Positions 29,117 to 36,716 of a stretch of 36,716 nt of DNA are shown here, piece by piece. Origin of the DNA: Anaerolinea sp. (GTDB lineage Bacteria > Chloroflexota > Anaerolineae > SpSt-313); NCBI GenBank assembly GCA_020725765.1, contig DYEI01000271.1:1-36716 (forward strand). The letters are read 5' to 3'. The translations under genes were made by a program, and so were the position numbers. How positions within the stretch are numbered: the stretch's first letter is position 1; every line of letters begins with the position of its first letter. The notes under the pieces were generated by a model. That model had not been told where the DNA came from, made no database searches, and saw only the letters and a list, made by a program, of their open reading frames with translations.

Positions 29117-29686
29117 CTAGCTGCGGCCTTCGGTTCGCAGCACCTCCTCGCTGACATCGCGGATGGAGCGGCGCTCGCGCACTGCCTTGGCCTGGAGGTA
29201 GTGGGAGGCCTCCGCCTCGCGCCAGCCGTGCGTTTTCATGAGCACTCGTTTCGCCTCCTCGAGGACCTGCAGGATGCGCATCGCGGACTGCAGATCGGCA
29301 GCCTCGCGGCGGAGGGCCTGCGTCTCCTCGAAGCGGGCGAGGGCAATCTCGAGGGCGGGGGCGAGGTCGACCGGGCGCACCGGCTTGGCCAGGTAGGCGT
29401 GGACGGCGAGGCTCGCAGCGCGGGCGACAAGGTCGGGGCTAGAGTAGGCGGTGAGAATGATCACGGGCACTGGCCGCTCGGCGGTGATCGCCTCGGCGGC
29501 GTCGAGGCCGTCCATCTGCGGCATCTTGATGTCGAGGATCACCAGATCCGGCCGTGTGGCGCGCGCCATCTCGACCGCCTGCCTGCCATCGCTGACGGCG
29601 GCAACGACCTCGTGCCCCATCTCTTCGAGCGAAGCCGTGAGGCCGAGACGAATGATCCCCTCGTCGTCTGCAATCAGGATGCGCAC
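29117..29686 (-). CDS. ANTAR-domain response regulator (second of a pair)
   Basis: A 189-residue regulator. The receiver domain (1-115) has acidic Asp7/Asp8, phospho-acceptor Asp52 (VILDIKMPQMDG), Thr79 and Lys101. A short coiled linker leads to the C-terminal ANTAR RNA-binding domain (about 130-185, ILQVLEEAKRVLMKTHGWREAEASHYLQ). ANTAR proteins bind paired hairpins in nascent mRNA and prevent termination. The GTG start follows ACAGGAGGT at 6 bp; the longer frame into upstream DNA has no support. It is separated from its paralogue by an intrinsic terminator, so it may need its own promoter or readthrough. Sequence is close to the neighbour at 29911-30498. Confidence 0.9.
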   Translation of the reverse strand: MRILIADDEGIIRLGLTASLEEMGHEVVAAVSDGRQAVEMARATRPDLVILDIKMPQMDGLDAAEAITAERPVPVIILTAYSSPDLVARAASLAVHAYLAKPVRPVDLAPALEIALARFEETQALRREAADLQSAMRILQVLEEAKRVLMKTHGWREAEASHYLQAKAVRERRSIRDVSEEVLRTEGRS

Positions 29687-29767
29687 AGCCGACCTCCTGT
29701 AATGGTTCGGGTCTTCCCAGTCTCGCTGCCAGCCTGCCGGTACTCTGGTCGCAGCGCGTCGCGCACG

Positions 29768-29814
29768 AAAAAAAGCCCTCAGGGCGAGCCTGCCCGCTCG
29801 CGTCCAGGGGCTTC
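29768..29814 (-). terminator. Intrinsic terminator after the first ANTAR regulator
   Basis: Read on the minus strand, AAGCCC (29813-29808) and GGGCTT enclose an inner perfect stem GCGAGC/GCTCGC with a hexaloop, and the structure ends in a run of seven T (plus-strand A7 at 29768-29774). This is the only textbook Rho-independent terminator seen in the window. It lies between the two ANTAR regulator genes and points in their direction. Confidence 0.8.
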
Positions 29815-29910
29815 GTGGCCGAAAGCTCCATCGCTCCGCTGATGGTGGCTGGATTGGCGCCGCCGATGGTCCGGGGACCGCTCGTGCGGGCACTCTTTGC
29901 GGGGAGCATA

Positions 29911-30498
29911 CTACGCCGAGGGGGTATTGTCAAACGGTGGCATCCCTCGCAGTATCTCCTCGCTCACCTCGCGCATCGAGCGGCGGCCGCGGCGCGCCCG
30001 TGCCCGAAGCCAGCGCAGGGCCTCCTCTTCGCCCAGCCCGTGGACCTCCATCAGCCGCCGCTTGGCCTGCTGCACGAGGTCGCGACTGCGCAGCGCTTCC
30101 TGCAGGTCGGCCGCCTCCTGCCGCAGCGCCTGCTCCTCCTGAAACCGGCTGATGGCGATCTCGAGGGCGGGCCCCAGCTCTACCGGGCGGATCGGCTTGA
30201 CGAGGTAGGCGTGCACCCGCAGGCCGGCCGCTCTCTCCACGAGGTCGCGGCTAGAGTAGGCGGTCAGGATGACGATGGGCACCGGCCGTTCGCGGCTGAT
30301 CGCCTCGGCGGCCTCGAGGCCATCGATGCCGGGCATCTTGATATCAAGGATGACCAGGTCTGGGTGCGCCGTGCGCGCAAGCTCGACGGCCGAGAGGCCA
30401 TCAGCAGCAATGGCGACGACCTCGTGGCCCATGGCCTCAAGCGAGGCCCTCAACCCCAGGCGGATGATCGCCTCATCATCGGCGATGAGGATGCGCAT
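29911..30498 (-). CDS. ANTAR-domain response regulator (first of a pair)
   Basis: A 195-residue regulator. The receiver has Asp7/Asp8, phospho-acceptor Asp52 (VILDIKMPGIDG), Thr79 and Lys101. The ANTAR domain follows a helical linker (about 130-185, SRDLVQQAKRRLMEVHGLGEEEALRWL). The start is fixed by GAGGAGG 6 bp upstream of the ATG at 30498. It begins 48 bp after the histidine kinase stop, so kinase and regulator form one transcription unit. It likely acts as an RNA-binding antiterminator activated by the kinase. Its 3' end is followed by a strong terminator. Confidence 0.92.
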   Translation of the reverse strand: MRILIADDEAIIRLGLRASLEAMGHEVVAIAADGLSAVELARTAHPDLVILDIKMPGIDGLEAAEAISRERPVPIVILTAYSSRDLVERAAGLRVHAYLVKPIRPVELGPALEIAISRFQEEQALRQEAADLQEALRSRDLVQQAKRRLMEVHGLGEEEALRWLRARARRGRRSMREVSEEILRGMPPFDNTPSA

Positions 30499-30546
30499 GG
30501 CAGGCCTCCTCACCTGCAAGAACCGTCGCCAGCTCCAAGGCGGAGC

Positions 30547-32193
30547 TCAGGCCGCGCCAGAGAGCTGGCGCGGGATGCGTATCGTGGCCGTCGTGCCCTC
30601 CCGTCGCTCGAAGCGGAGCTCGCCGTGAAGGTCCTCGGCGACGAGGGTCTCGGCGATCTGCAGGCCGCTCTGGGGGGCAGAGGCATCCGGCAGTCCGACG
30701 CCGTCATCGCGGACGGCGATGCGCCAGTGGTCTTCCTCCTGCCCCAACTCGACCGATATCCGCCCGCGGTCGCGACCGACGAAGGCATGCTCCATGGCGT
30801 TCTGCACCAGCTCGTTGATCACTAGCGCCAGCGTAGTGGCCGGCCGCGACGGGAGGGCGAACGTCTCGCCCGCGATGGTCAGGTCGATCTGTGCGTCGGG
30901 TGGTGCCATGTTCTGGACGACGCCCCCGGCGACGCGCGCGAGCAGCTCCTTGACGTCGACCATCTGCAGGCCCCGATGGGAGAGGACCTCGTGGACGGCG
31001 GCGATGCTCTGGACGCGGTTGATCGCCTCCTGCAGCAGCTCCTCGGGCGGGACGTGCCGTCCCTCGGCCATCTGCAGACGGAGCAGCATGATCACGCTCT
31101 GGAGGTTGTTCTTGATGCGGTGGTGCATCTCGCGTACGACGGCTGCCGAGGTCGCGAGACGGGCGTTCTCGATGGCCAGCGCGGTCTGGTTGGCCAGGGT
31201 CGAGAAGAGGGCGATTTCCTCCCGGGTGAAGTGGTGGGGCTCGCCGGTGTAGCAGTTGAAGACGCCGATGACCCGCTCGCGGACGCGGAGCGGCACGCAC
31301 AAGAGCGAGCAAAGGCCCTCCTGCCGGGCGAAGGCGCGGTAGCGGTAGCGGCGGTCGCGGCGCACGTCGTCGACGGCGATGAGCTGGCCCGTCTCGGCGA
31401 CAAGGCCGGCGATGCCCTCGCCGACGCGGATTGGCTCCTGACTGCGGTAGGCGGGGTTCAGGCCGCGGATGGCGCGCGGGACGAGCTCGCCCCGCTCCTC
31501 GTCGAGGAGGAGCAGCGAGCAGGCCTTGGCATGCATCACGCGGGCGGCCATCTCCACGATCAGCTCGAGCATCTCATCAGGGTATAGAGGGGAGGTGACC
31601 GTCTCGCTCACCTCGGCGAGGGTCGAGAGCTCGGCGATCTGGCGCTGCATCTGATCGTAGAGCATGGCCTTCTCGAGGGCGCCGGCGGCGAGGTCGGCGA
31701 TAAGGGAGAGGAGCTCGACCTCGTCGGAGGTGTACTCGTGGTAGTTCCGCGTCTGGACGTTCACGGCGCCGATGACCCGGCCCTGATTGACCAGCGGCAC
31801 GGCGAGGAGCGAGCGGAAGAGGCGCTCGCCAGTCTCGGGCAGGTACTTGTAGCGCGGATCGCCCGCCGCATCGGCGACGGCGACCGCCTGCCCCTGCTGG
31901 GCGGCCCAGCCGGTGAGCCCTTCGCCAAGGCGCAGCCGGGCATGGCCGACGGCGGCGCCGGCCAGCCCGGTGGTGGCCTTGAGGACGAGGAACTGCCCGC
32001 TCTCGTCCAGGAGGTAGATCGAGCAGGAGTCCACGTCCATCACTTCGGCGGTGCGCCGGGTGATCAGGTCGAGGGTGGCCTTGAGCTCCCAGGCGGCGTT
32101 GATCGCCCGGCCGATCTCGCGCAGGGCGGCGAGCTGGGCGATCTTTTGTTGTAGTTCTCTCTCAAGCTCGTGCATCCGTTGGTCCGTACCCAT
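30547..32193 (-). CDS. GAF-GAF sensor histidine kinase, HisKA_2 type
   Basis: A 548-residue soluble kinase with no membrane helix. A short N-terminal coiled coil leads to GAF 1 (about 40-175, DVDSCSIYLLDESGQF) and GAF 2 (about 205-345, HAKACSLLLLDEERGELV). The HisKA_2 dimerisation/phosphoacceptor motif follows, REMHHRIKNNLQSV, with His357/His358. The HATPase domain has INELVQNAMEHAF and DDGVGLP. HisKA_2 kinases typically pair with ANTAR regulators, and two lie directly downstream. The GAF domains imply sensing of a cytoplasmic small molecule, redox state or gas; no ligand can be named. The ribosome site is weak (AGGAACAG at 12 bp). An ATG at 32175 is a possible alternative start. Confidence 0.9.
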   Translation of the reverse strand: MGTDQRMHELERELQQKIAQLAALREIGRAINAAWELKATLDLITRRTAEVMDVDSCSIYLLDESGQFLVLKATTGLAGAAVGHARLRLGEGLTGWAAQQGQAVAVADAAGDPRYKYLPETGERLFRSLLAVPLVNQGRVIGAVNVQTRNYHEYTSDEVELLSLIADLAAGALEKAMLYDQMQRQIAELSTLAEVSETVTSPLYPDEMLELIVEMAARVMHAKACSLLLLDEERGELVPRAIRGLNPAYRSQEPIRVGEGIAGLVAETGQLIAVDDVRRDRRYRYRAFARQEGLCSLLCVPLRVRERVIGVFNCYTGEPHHFTREEIALFSTLANQTALAIENARLATSAAVVREMHHRIKNNLQSVIMLLRLQMAEGRHVPPEELLQEAINRVQSIAAVHEVLSHRGLQMVDVKELLARVAGGVVQNMAPPDAQIDLTIAGETFALPSRPATTLALVINELVQNAMEHAFVGRDRGRISVELGQEEDHWRIAVRDDGVGLPDASAPQSGLQIAETLVAEDLHGELRFERREGTTATIRIPRQLSGAA

Positions 32194-33639: not shown

Positions 33640-34062
33640 TCACCGCCCGGTCAGGCCTCGGATCAGCAGATAGAGGCCGATGATCACCAGGGCGAGCGGC
33701 AGGATGGTCAGGATGCCGAAGGCGCTGCTCAGCCCGATGGCGATCAGGATGATCGCCAGCACCACGATGCCACCGACGGGCCGCCGGTAGGCGGGCACCA
33801 GCAGGCGGAAGGCCGCCTCGAGGAGAAGGATCACCCCGGCACCGATCAGGATCACCGACCAGGCCGGCAGGGCCACAAGGGTTGCCAGCGTCCCGAGCGA
33901 GTCGGCGAGGAGGACCAGGCCGGCCCAGATCAGGATCAGCGCCCAGGCGATGGCGCTGATCGGGTCGCGGCGCCACTTTTCGCCCTGTCCTTTCTCGCGC
34001 CCCTTTTCTTCCTGCTTCTCCTCGGCCTTTTCGCTCTTTTCGTCACGTCGTTGCGCAGCCAT
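33640..34062 (-). CDS. Small four-helix membrane protein of unknown function
   Basis: A 140-residue protein with a highly charged Lys/Glu-rich N-terminus (about 1-38) followed by four hydrophobic helices: about 40-62 (AIAWALILIWAGLVLLADSL), 68-92, 96-114 and 117-136 (LPLALVIIGLYLLIRGL). The layout resembles LiaF/DUF5668-type small membrane proteins that often modulate stress or envelope regulation, but the match is only in layout. The start at 34062 is fixed by AAGGAG 6 bp upstream. A longer frame extends to 34500 through the structured repeat and is not coding. Confidence 0.75.
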   Translation of the reverse strand: MAAQRRDEKSEKAEEKQEEKGREKGQGEKWRRDPISAIAWALILIWAGLVLLADSLGTLATLVALPAWSVILIGAGVILLLEAAFRLLVPAYRRPVGGIVVLAIILIAIGLSSAFGILTILPLALVIIGLYLLIRGLTGR

Positions 34063-34100: not shown

Positions 34101-34129
34101 ATTGTAGCACATAAATGAACGGAGGTGAA
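34101..34129 (-). promoter_or_regulatory. Promoter of the small membrane-protein gene
   Basis: On the minus strand TTCACC (34129-34124) and TACAAT (34106-34101) are separated by 17 bp. Transcription would start near 34094, about 30 bp before the ATG. Confidence 0.5.
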
Positions 34130-34217: not shown

Positions 34218-34452
34218 GGGTGCGTCCAAGATGCGTCACTGCCTGGGCTGCAGCTGGGTGTTTTGCTAGGCTGCAGCCTGGCCCTGCCCAGGTAGGGGTT
34301 TGGCGGGTTGGCGCGTCTGGCCGCCCCGGGGCGGCCAGACGCGCCAACCCGCCAAACCCCCAACAAGAGGTCTTGCACCGGGCTTGTGCGACGCGTGAAG
34401 CCCGGTCGCTGGCAGAGCGCCCTCGGCAGGCTGCCCGACTGCCACTCTGCTG
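34218..34452 (+). repeat. ~235-bp structured repeat, copy A
   Basis: Direct copy of 36480-36716, with roughly four-fifths of positions identical by eye. Stems: P1 GCGTC 34222-34226 with GATGC 34230-34234; P3 CCTGG 34277-34281 with CCAGG 34288-34292; P4 a perfect 66-bp palindrome 34295-34360 (33-bp arms, no spacer); P5 ACCGGGCTT 34377-34385 with AAGCCCGGT 34398-34406. A weaker pairing of TTTTGCT 34261-34267 with AACAAGA 34362-34368 encloses P3 and P4. No open frame, transposase or T-tract is associated. The element could be a structured RNA gene, a structured UTR or a non-autonomous mobile element. Confidence 0.8.
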
Positions 34453-34486
34453 GCCGAGCCTGGTCGCACCCTCCCGCCACCCGACA

Positions 34487-34515
34487 TTGACGTCCCTCAC
34501 CTCCAGTGCTACGAT
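34487..34515 (+). promoter_or_regulatory. Sigma-70-type promoter of the isomerase-like gene
   Basis: TTGACG at 34487-34492 and TACGAT at 34510-34515 are 17 bp apart. Transcription would begin near 34522, giving a leader of about 67 nt. The promoter begins 35 bp after repeat copy A, so copy A is not in this transcript unless made from upstream. Confidence 0.65.
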
Positions 34516-34588
34516 TGCAGAGAACCTGCAGTCACCCTCGGTGCATAGCCATCACGGCGGCATCGCCCAACCTCAGAAAGGACAGACC

Positions 34589-35368
34589 ATGAAGCTCTCC
34601 TGCGTGACGGCAAGCTATGTGGCAGACCTTCTCGGCTACCCCGGCGCTATCGACTGGGGCGAGGCCAGCCAGAGGGCGGCCCAGGCGCCGCTTCTCGGCA
34701 CGATCGATGGGATGCTGGAGCGGCTCGCGCCGGCAAGGCTCGACGGCATCGAGCTGTGGTTCCCTCACGTGTGGCCGGCCAAGGTCACGCCCTCCCTCGC
34801 CAGCGTCGTACGTCGTCGCCTCGCCGCGCGGGGGATGGCCTGCTGCGCCTGTGCGGGTGGGCTGCCGGACCCGGCGATGGACCCGGACGGATGCGAGGAG
34901 CTCTTCCAGGTGACGCAGATGCTCCACGCGCCCCTCATCGCCGGGCATCTGCCGGCAGGTATCGTCCCACGGCTGGGCCCCTACTGCGAGCGGTACGGCG
35001 TGCGGCTGGGGTTCGAGAACGGGCACGAGAGGGACGTCTCGGAGATCATCGCGGTGATCCGCGAGGGCGGCCCCTGGCTGGGGGCAAACCTGGACACCGG
35101 GAACCTGGCGGCGCAGGGAGGAGACCCGGTCCGGGCGGTGCGAGAGCTGGCGGGAAGGCTCGTGCACGTGCATTTCAAGGATGTGCCGGCGGTCGGGGCG
35201 CATGACTGCGTGGCCCTCGGTAAGGGGATTGTGGACGTGAGGGGCGTGGTCCGCGAGCTAAAGGCCGTCGGGTACGACGGGTGGCTCTCGATTGAGATCG
35301 AAACGCCGGACCGCGACCCGACGGAGGAGATCATCGCCAGCGCCGAGCTGCTGCGGGCGCTGTGGTAG
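34589..35368 (+). CDS. Sugar phosphate isomerase/epimerase-like TIM barrel protein
   Basis: A 259-residue protein of the xylose isomerase-like (AP_endonuc_2) barrel family. Metal-ligand positions are visible as the Glu in LGFENGHE, the Asp in GANLDTGNLA, the histidines of LVHVHFKDV, and the Glu in LSIEIETPD. These proteins interconvert or dehydrate sugars, inositols or hydroxy-acids in catabolism; the substrate cannot be told. The ATG follows AGAAAGGA and has its own promoter. No transporter or partner gene is adjacent, so it appears to be a single-gene unit inside a repeat-flanked segment. Confidence 0.85.
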   Translation: MKLSCVTASYVADLLGYPGAIDWGEASQRAAQAPLLGTIDGMLERLAPARLDGIELWFPHVWPAKVTPSLASVVRRRLAARGMACCACAGGLPDPAMDPDGCEELFQVTQMLHAPLIAGHLPAGIVPRLGPYCERYGVRLGFENGHERDVSEIIAVIREGGPWLGANLDTGNLAAQGGDPVRAVRELAGRLVHVHFKDVPAVGAHDCVALGKGIVDVRGVVRELKAVGYDGWLSIEIETPDRDPTEEIIASAELLRALW

Positions 35369-36077
35369 CGGCAGGGCGGGATCGCTTCGGCGGCCCGTAG
35401 GGCCGGCTGGCAGTGACGGGTGGGGGACGGGCGGCGAGGTCGCGCGGGGCGGGAAGCCCCGCGCTGAAAAGCGGCCCAAGCCCTTGCGGGGCTGAGGCGG
35501 TTTCTCTGGTGCGGCCCGGGGCGCCCGTAGGCGCCGGTTGCGTTGCTGCGCGGCTGCGAAGAGACGCGGTGAGTGTGCACAGATGTGTCCTGGGCCCCAG
35601 GTCCGTATCACTGCAGGCGTCTGAGGAGGGCCTTTCGCCCGGGCAGCGCCATCGCGCCGCTACAAGCCTGGCGAGGCGGTGGTGGGCGCAGCTAGCGCTC
35701 TCTGGGCAGTCGTGGTACTCTTCGGCTTTGCCGGCGCCGCCATCGGCAGACAGCCGACGGAGGGTGTTCTCGTCGGCTGCGGCTACGATGATGTAGGGCT
35801 GTGGGCCCGGTCGGGCCGTCAGCAATCGATGCGCTTGCGGCCCCAAGTGAACGGGCACCGGGCAGGTCACCGCTCTTTCTGCATCCGGAGAGGTGCAACC
35901 CTTACGCATTCCCTGTGCACGGAGCGCCGGCCGATGTCAGCTCCGGTTGACTCCGCGGGCTGGGGCGCCCCGTCACCGTCATGCGGGACGAGGCACCCTC
36001 GTCGCACGACTGTCCCGAGGACCACGTTCTCGTTGCGATTGCCAGGCTTCAGACGCTGAGCGTCGGCTCTGGCCCGG
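35369..36077. other. 709-bp non-coding or degenerate region
   Basis: Open frames here lack protein-like composition and ribosome sites. A 9-bp perfect hairpin GCGCGGGGC 35442-35450 with GCCCCGCGC 35456-35464 lies downstream of the isomerase gene and may define its mRNA end. GACGAGG 35987-35993 pairs with CCTCGTC 35997-36003. I see no other recognisable element; decayed genes cannot be excluded. Confidence 0.5.
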
Positions 36078-36299
36078 ATGCAGTTGCCTAAGGAACTGCT
36101 TCTGCAGCATATAAGGGACTCGGGCCGTGGCGGGGCCAGCCTGTTCGAGCTGCAGCAGGTGTTGCCGGGATTGAGCCGCGGCCAGATTCAGACTCTGCTT
36201 CGCGAGCTCAGGCGTGAGGCCAAGATCCGGGTGGAAGGGGTGACCAAGGGCGCGCGCTGGTACGCGGGACCCGAAAAACGCAATTCGACGCAATTCTGA
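36078..36299 (+). CDS. Small winged-helix DNA-binding protein (possible gene remnant)
   Basis: A 73-residue frame with a clear winged-helix pattern: helix 1 (PKELLLQHIRDSG), helix 2 (SLFELQQVLP), recognition helix (SRGQIQTLLRELRREAKIRV) and a wing (EGVTKGARWYAG). Such domains occur alone or at the C-terminus of larger ATP-binding regulators and helicase-like proteins. No good ribosome site precedes the ATG, and no upstream coding sequence is evident, so it may be either a small regulator or the surviving end of a decayed gene. Its last codons are formed by the first GCAAT repeat units of the array that follows. Confidence 0.5.
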   Translation: MQLPKELLLQHIRDSGRGGASLFELQQVLPGLSRGQIQTLLRELRREAKIRVEGVTKGARWYAGPEKRNSTQF

Positions 36300-36394
36300 T
36301 GCAATCCGATGCAATCCAAAGCACGGCCCGGTCCTGCGCTGGTGAGTGGCGCGTCCGATAGAGCCCCAATTCGACCCAATTGCGACCTGATTGC
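36280..36394. repeat. Helically phased GCAAT repeats, direct then inverted
   Basis: Four direct units start at 36280 (GCAATTCGAC), 36290 (GCAATTCTGAT), 36301 (GCAATCCGAT) and 36311 (GCAATCCAAA), at 10- or 11-bp steps. After a 58-bp gap, ATTGC occurs at 36379-36383 and 36390-36394, the same motif on the other strand at an 11-bp step, with a degenerate third (ATTCG, 36369-36373). One-turn phasing suggests cooperative protein binding. The array overlaps the end of the winged-helix frame and is close to repeat copy B. Confidence 0.6.
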
Positions 36395-36479
36395 GGACGA
36401 AAGGGACTCCTGAGTGCTTCGGTTGCCGGGTAAGTGCCCAGCATCTTCCCACATATCAGTCCGGCTTCTTTCCCGGTCT
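36300..36479. other. Non-coding spacer between the winged-helix frame and repeat copy B
   Basis: It contains the second half of the GCAAT array up to 36394. After that I see no gene or recognisable element before copy B starts at 36480. Confidence 0.5.
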
Positions 36480-36716
36480 GGGTGCATCCAAGATGCGTCA
36501 CTGCCTGGGCTGCAGCCGGGTGTTTTGCTGGGCCACAGTCCGGCCCTATCCCGGGCCGGGGGTCTGGCGGTTGGCGCGCCTGGCCGCCCTCGGGGCGGCC
36601 AGGCGCGCCAACCGCCAGACCCCCAGCAAAAGGTCTCGCACCGGGCTTGTGCAAAGCGTAAGGCCCGGTCGCCGGCAGAGCGTCCCCGGCAGGCTGCCTG
36701 ACCGCGAATCTGCTGA
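36480..36716 (+). repeat. ~235-bp structured repeat, copy B (reaches window end)
   Basis: Homologous to 34218-34452 in the same orientation. Stems: P1 GCATC 36484-36488 with GATGC 36492-36496; P2 TTTTGCT 36523-36529 with AGCAAAA 36625-36631; P3 36539-36543 with 36551-36555; P4 32-bp perfect stem 36558-36589 with 36593-36624, loop TCG; P5 ACCGGGCTT 36640-36648 with 36661-36669 (one wobble). Compared with copy A, stem changes are paired. The last matching bases coincide with the window edge, so the true end may lie beyond. Confidence 0.8.

Follow-up and report, generated by a model that had tools for sequence, protein, structure and literature searches.

The window, that is, the whole stretch of 36,716 nucleotides analysed here, belongs to an Anaerolineae (Chloroflexota) metagenome-assembled genome of 4.58 Mb in 570 contigs (designated G000), and it carries two direct copies, A and B, of a repeat bounded by terminal inverted repeats (TIRs). 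Both copies had been recognised in a preliminary description of this DNA and are indeed present; the extent given there for copy B (36480-36716) stands, albeit for a copy truncated by the contig end, whereas copy A reaches 34471 rather than 34452. Being situated between divergent genes and upstream of the promoter of the right-hand one, copy A is not expected to be included in the transcripts of its neighbours. Its flanks contain no recognisable target-site duplication (TSD). The features of the locus are as follows:

33640..34062, minus strand: LiaF-TM-like host gene (slightly under the Pfam cut-off), divergent and to the left of copy A
34101-34106: possible -10 box of the LiaF-TM-like gene, reading ATTGTA on the plus strand
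34218..34471, plus strand: copy A, long form, 254 bp (BLAST family and copy alignment; ends set from the TIRs common to copies with an exact TSD)
34218..34232, plus strand: left TIR of copy A, GGGTGCGTCCAAGAT (near-GGGTGCATCCAAGAT matches number 73 in the genome, backward control 0)
34295..34360: central palindrome of copy A, 32-bp arms, an optional module (fold and pair counts; missing from 14/26 aligned copies)
34457..34471, minus strand: right TIR of copy A, equal to the left TIR at 12/15 positions (sequence and copy alignment)
34487..34492, plus strand: predicted host promoter, -35 box TTGACG, exactly 15 bp beyond the right end of copy A
34510..34515, plus strand: predicted host promoter, -10 box TACGAT, 17-bp spacer from TTGACG
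34589..35368, plus strand: host gene downstream of the copy A promoter, encoding a xylose-isomerase-like TIM barrel protein (PF01261)
36480..36716, plus strand: copy B, long form; the contig end precedes its right TIR
36480..36494, plus strand: left TIR of copy B, GGGTGCATCCAAGAT

The repeat family and its insertion sites

The repeat had been described as a pair, whereas the genome holds about 50 copies: copy A yields 58 BLAST matches in G000, and the terminus GGGTGCATCCAAGAT is matched 73 times with at most one mismatch, its reversed control not at all. Many copies are found at contig ends, since repeats break assemblies. Alignment of the copies revealed sharp ends and an inverted repeat of ~15 bp, GGGTGCATCCAAGAT...ATCTTGGATGCACCC. 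Among about 25 complete copies in G000 and a congener (G001, corresponding to Anaerolineae bacterium HOT.MB2.62), exact TSDs of 8 or 9 bp flank eight distinct copies, and two more show a duplication matching at 7/8 positions; the exact cases are exemplified by GTTGCCAA, TATACCCC, GCGGCCAA, CAATCGAG, CATGCGGC, GGACTGGT, GATATACC and CTGTTCAGT. Long copies, which contain the palindrome, measure 249-256 bp and short ones, which do not, 120-192 bp, while related elements range from 52 to about 480 bp. All are short, non-coding and dispersed, and no transposase gene is found within them. By its TIRs, TSDs and copy number, the repeat of the window is a MITE, the autonomous partner of which was not found, and it belongs to an element superfamily spread through the Anaerolineae, a class of uncultured bacteria. 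The suggestion of a mobile element in the preliminary description is thereby borne out.

Two loci deserve separate mention. A 52-bp element in G000 (L157, region of C163:21185-21218; GGGTATATCCCACAATGGTTG...CGACTCTGGGATACACCC, with the exact 9-bp duplication GAGAATGGC) is among the smallest elements with TIRs and a TSD that were seen, and it adjoins a TTGACA box. One insertion site is apparently filled in both G000 and G001 (L047 and L098, right flanks CATGCGGC...TTGCATAATCGC), which suggests that some of the insertions took place before the two species split.

The combination of TIRs with TSDs of 8-9 bp points to a DDE-type transposase. Searches of G000 with the profiles DDE_Tnp_1 (PF01609), ISL3 (PF01610) and IS1595 (PF12762) returned no transposase with matching TIRs; no TIR pair with a TSD enclosing a transposase was seen in 0.8 Mb of the closed genome G012 or in the stretches of G235 and G281 that were read, and an all-against-all comparison of the reading frames lying inward of TIRs yielded no autonomous partner. 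Three candidates were rejected: a 1.7-kb TIR pair (L205) encloses fragments of a histidine kinase and no transposase; a decayed ISAs1-like remnant near a superfamily TIR (L258, G281:C75) apparently has its own CAGGGC-type end and was judged to be a neighbour; and the repeated insertion sequences of G012 differ in their ends.

Distance and orientation relative to predicted promoters

Promoters were predicted from a TTGACA/TATAAT-like (sigma70-type) consensus at 62 right ends, gathered via element similarity or the TIR and not via the promoter. A strong predicted promoter lies within 80 bp of 45 of these ends, and at 40 of the 62, copy A included, it is directed away from the element, the -35 box starting at a distance of 13-17 bp; the mode, exactly 15 bp, accounts for 26, the expectation from shuffled flanks being 0.11% per right end. 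The same spacing was found at 7/40 left ends. The downstream reading frame runs in the direction of the promoter in 18 cases and against it in five, with 17 undecided. Some copies have no predicted promoter at either end, and a minority are inserted in the opposite orientation.

Sequence between the TIR and the -35 box, as well as within the promoter spacer, is unrelated between copies. The TSD is located between the TIR and the -35 box and its twin flanks the opposite end of the element, which makes the promoter part of the host sequence. At one locus (L115, G000:C551), a copy has cut into the TIR of another family's element exactly 15 bp from the -35 box. This locus and L057 (G000:C237) both have window-family copies lying within the terminal GGGATATACCC of the other family's element, at the same promoter.

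The arrangement recurs in families that differ from that of the window in interior and size and have the related TIR GGGTRYRTCCCA. GGGTRYATCC with an inverted -35 box at a distance of 14-16 bp occurs at 20 sites in G000, 4 in G001 and 10 in a relative of the same taxonomic family (G002, corresponding to Chloroflexota JPAS_maxbin.107), the backward control giving one match in all 60 genomes searched. The pattern TGTCAA-N14-16-GGGTRYRTCCCA is present in 30 of 298 genomes of the class (backward control 0), and in a phylum-wide sample the GGGTRYRTCCCA promoter pattern was found outside the class in only two genomes. G012 contains about 40 copies of an 80-bp element, mostly with exact TSDs, and G281 contains elements of 102 bp and ~450 bp; nearly all paired copies in these two genomes have a TSD. 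With the -35 box counted at 13-17 bp, and the promoter pattern having served to select a minority of loci in G281 and G000, preferred and other ends compare as 39/60 against 6/38 in G000/G001 (p=1.5e-6), 10/17 against 0/13 for the 102-bp element of G281 (p=0.001) and 10/44 against 3/44 for the 80-bp element of G012 (p=0.07). The 14-16 bp bin holds 67-82% in G000/G001 and G281, as against 2-5% in other 3-bp bins; the corresponding values in G012 are 30% and 1.9%. Among the exact TIRs that were read in G235, also a closed genome, several have predicted promoters scoring at least 8, with the -35 box at 15-17 bp. On contigs C57 and C9 of G281, a 102-bp element stands next to the promoter, in a row with an older one of ~450 bp, and in these stacked insertions nearly the same 8-bp sequence (GTAGAGTA, TCAGCACC) is met three times.

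The central palindrome and the competing readings

The preliminary description had proposed a conserved multi-stem fold with compensatory changes, to be read as either a structured non-coding RNA or a mobile element recognised by its structure. The double changes that it reported from T-A in copy A to C-G in copy B were verified, both in the long stem (34300/34355 versus 36564/36618 and 34316/34339 versus 36579/36603) and in the stem P3 (34279/34290 versus 36541/36553). Both copies also fold far more favourably than shuffled sequences (z -7.8 and -8.8), mostly owing to the central palindrome; outside the long stem their predicted folds disagree. The long stem is missing from 14/26 aligned copies through several different junctions, which marks the palindrome as an optional module. 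Exact TSDs are also found at copies lacking it, so that recognition of the structure by the mobilising enzyme is not supported.

Within the palindromes of the 12 long copies, 359 pairs are Watson-Crick, one is G-T, one A-C and one other, and the arms diverge by 18.6% between copies as against 0.8% within a copy; the long copies of G002 have different sequences with palindromes nearly as perfect. RNA helices tolerate G-U, and the near-absence of wobbles fits homogenisation of the palindrome arms at the DNA level by template switching. The covariation, which is almost entirely confined to this ~30-bp palindrome, looks like the product of this process rather than of a constrained RNA. The caution raised at the outset, that repair of a palindrome may mimic covariation, is in keeping with a single G-T and a single A-C among 362 pairs, and the case illustrates that homogenisation of a palindrome can pass for covariation in an RNA. 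Further copies, which the preliminary description proposed to seek in the host and related genomes, were found in number, but covariation outside the long stem proved weak: a double change of any kind affects 4/43 pairs of the consensus fold (26 copies), and the covariation term amounts to 0.24 of 44 kcal/mol.

A dispersed structured RNA or riboswitch-like element with its fold under selection would be in line with the strong predicted folding of both copies, the perfection of the long stem, the conserved unpaired stretches and, outside the palindrome, double changes in slight excess (9 cells versus 4.0 in shuffles, 1 of 500). This reading is nonetheless very unlikely, as half of the copies dispense with the stem, which itself does not tolerate G-U, the other stems covary only weakly, and the excess is of a size that relatedness alone can yield. 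The nearly invariant segments to which attention had been drawn include the TIRs, which are required by transposition. The elements are, moreover, positioned upstream of promoters, and comparison with Rfam gave no match at the gathering score; sub-threshold matches are hairpin look-alikes, the best reaching 37.7 bits against a cut-off of 90.5. Mobile promoters or regulatory cassettes bringing their own -35/-10 pair would account for a promoter at a fixed spacing from the element end, yet this reading can hardly be entertained when the -35 box lies beyond the TSD, outside the element, and the sequence up to and between the boxes is unrelated from copy to copy. More serious is a mobile element without target choice, its spacing reflecting the survivors of selection because insertion there is harmless or even useful, insulating or modulating the promoter. 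Intergenic insertion upstream of promoters is least harmful, and a number of copies lack a predicted promoter at both ends. Purging would, however, be expected to leave a minimum distance and not so narrow a peak, of one or two bases, as that in the 14-16 bp bin; recent copies with perfect TSDs already show the spacing, and fresh insertions are stacked between older copies and the promoter, so that the older ones end up at another distance. We therefore regard selection alone as an improbable source of the pattern.

Four loci of G002, which is of another genus (L073, L077, L083 and L159), have the central palindrome and neighbouring hairpins in common with the window's family and a different terminus, GGGTATATCCCA, as if module and ends evolve separately. 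One long-form copy in G000 (L118, C398) has an exact TSD and a largely different palindrome sequence with perfect arms; in this copy it is the left end, rather than the right, that has a TTGACT box 15 bp away.

Proposed promoter-targeted transposition

Any explanation has to accommodate mobility, a fixed distance, a preferred orientation, promoters hit more than once, also by nested insertion, and recurrence in diverged families, all of which are observed. In our judgement, they are probably the work of a MITE that is moved in trans by a machinery selecting sigma70-type promoters, with the preferred end placed ~15 bp upstream of the -35 box; it is with equal confidence, and as part of the same explanation, that the central palindrome is regarded as a DNA hairpin which is optional and homogenises itself, the functional core lying elsewhere. 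We infer that targeting stems from the transposase, which would read either the shape of promoter DNA or a complex bound to the promoter, and not from later selection. The transposase would act on the MITE in trans and produce the 8-9-bp target duplications, host sigma70-type promoters being picked as targets by the transposition machinery and one preferred element end facing the promoter, ~15 bp upstream of the -35 box. Given a 17-bp spacer, the element would end near -51, and the 8 bp that are duplicated would occupy about -50 to -43, across which strand joining would take place. This region is contacted by the alpha-CTD of RNA polymerase or by class I/II (upstream) activators. The transposition complex may dock either on the shape of the promoter DNA or on a complex bound to the promoter, one element end being held in a fixed geometry. 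That a class-wide system recognises promoters in general, through bound RNA polymerase or the DNA shape that it imposes, and integrates in a preferred orientation near -50 is the broader form of the proposal, towards which we lean only slightly.

Bacterial MITEs such as Correia/CREE, ERIC, RUP and Nezha are likewise short and non-coding, with TIRs, TSDs and many copies, and are mobilised in trans; the present elements differ from them in the fixed 15-bp distance and orientation to a -35 box and in the large, optional, self-homogenising palindrome. In yeast, the transcription apparatus steers the retroelements Ty1 and Ty3 to sites a short, defined distance upstream of transcription starts. A short fixed distance upstream of (predicted) starts is common to both systems, with steering inferred in the present case; Ty1/Ty3 are, however, retroelements directed to RNA polymerase III genes of a eukaryote, whereas a DNA element and bacterial sigma70-type promoters are concerned here. 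Tn7, through TnsD and attTn7, is similarly specific in site and orientation and keeps a constant distance from the sequence that is recognised, yet it uses one conserved gene end, a 5-bp TSD and TGT ends instead of many unrelated promoters, an 8-9-bp TSD and GGGT ends. REP/BIME palindromes with their RAYT transposases are also dispersed hairpin-rich repeats; to our knowledge, REPs are without a comparable TIR/TSD architecture, in contrast to the TIRs and 8-9-bp TSDs described here.

A search of the open literature, with most subscription journals outside its scope, gave no relevant match to the TIRs GGGTGCATCCAAGAT and GGGTRYRTCCCA and no precedent for bacterial MITEs targeting promoters. Judging from sequence, it is the target choice of a MITE, and not a class of RNA, that would be new. 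We know of few bacterial transposons in which target choice follows function instead of a single sequence or chance. Landing ~50 bp upstream of transcription starts and facing them spares the genes, yet promoter strength and regulation are set there, and such elements could rewire promoters genome-wide. Finding the mobilising enzyme would make clear by what means a bacterial transposase reads promoters, and the enzyme could serve as a tool to mark or map active ones; recognition of promoters across the class, if true, would be a bacterial counterpart of the Ty elements guided by RNA polymerase.

Elsewhere in the window (29117-32193, minus strand), two tandem response-regulator reading frames were noted by eye from their RILIADDE... 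starts and ANTAR-like C-termini; they adjoin a reading frame for a GAF-type sensor kinase, and the group may possibly represent an antitermination system.
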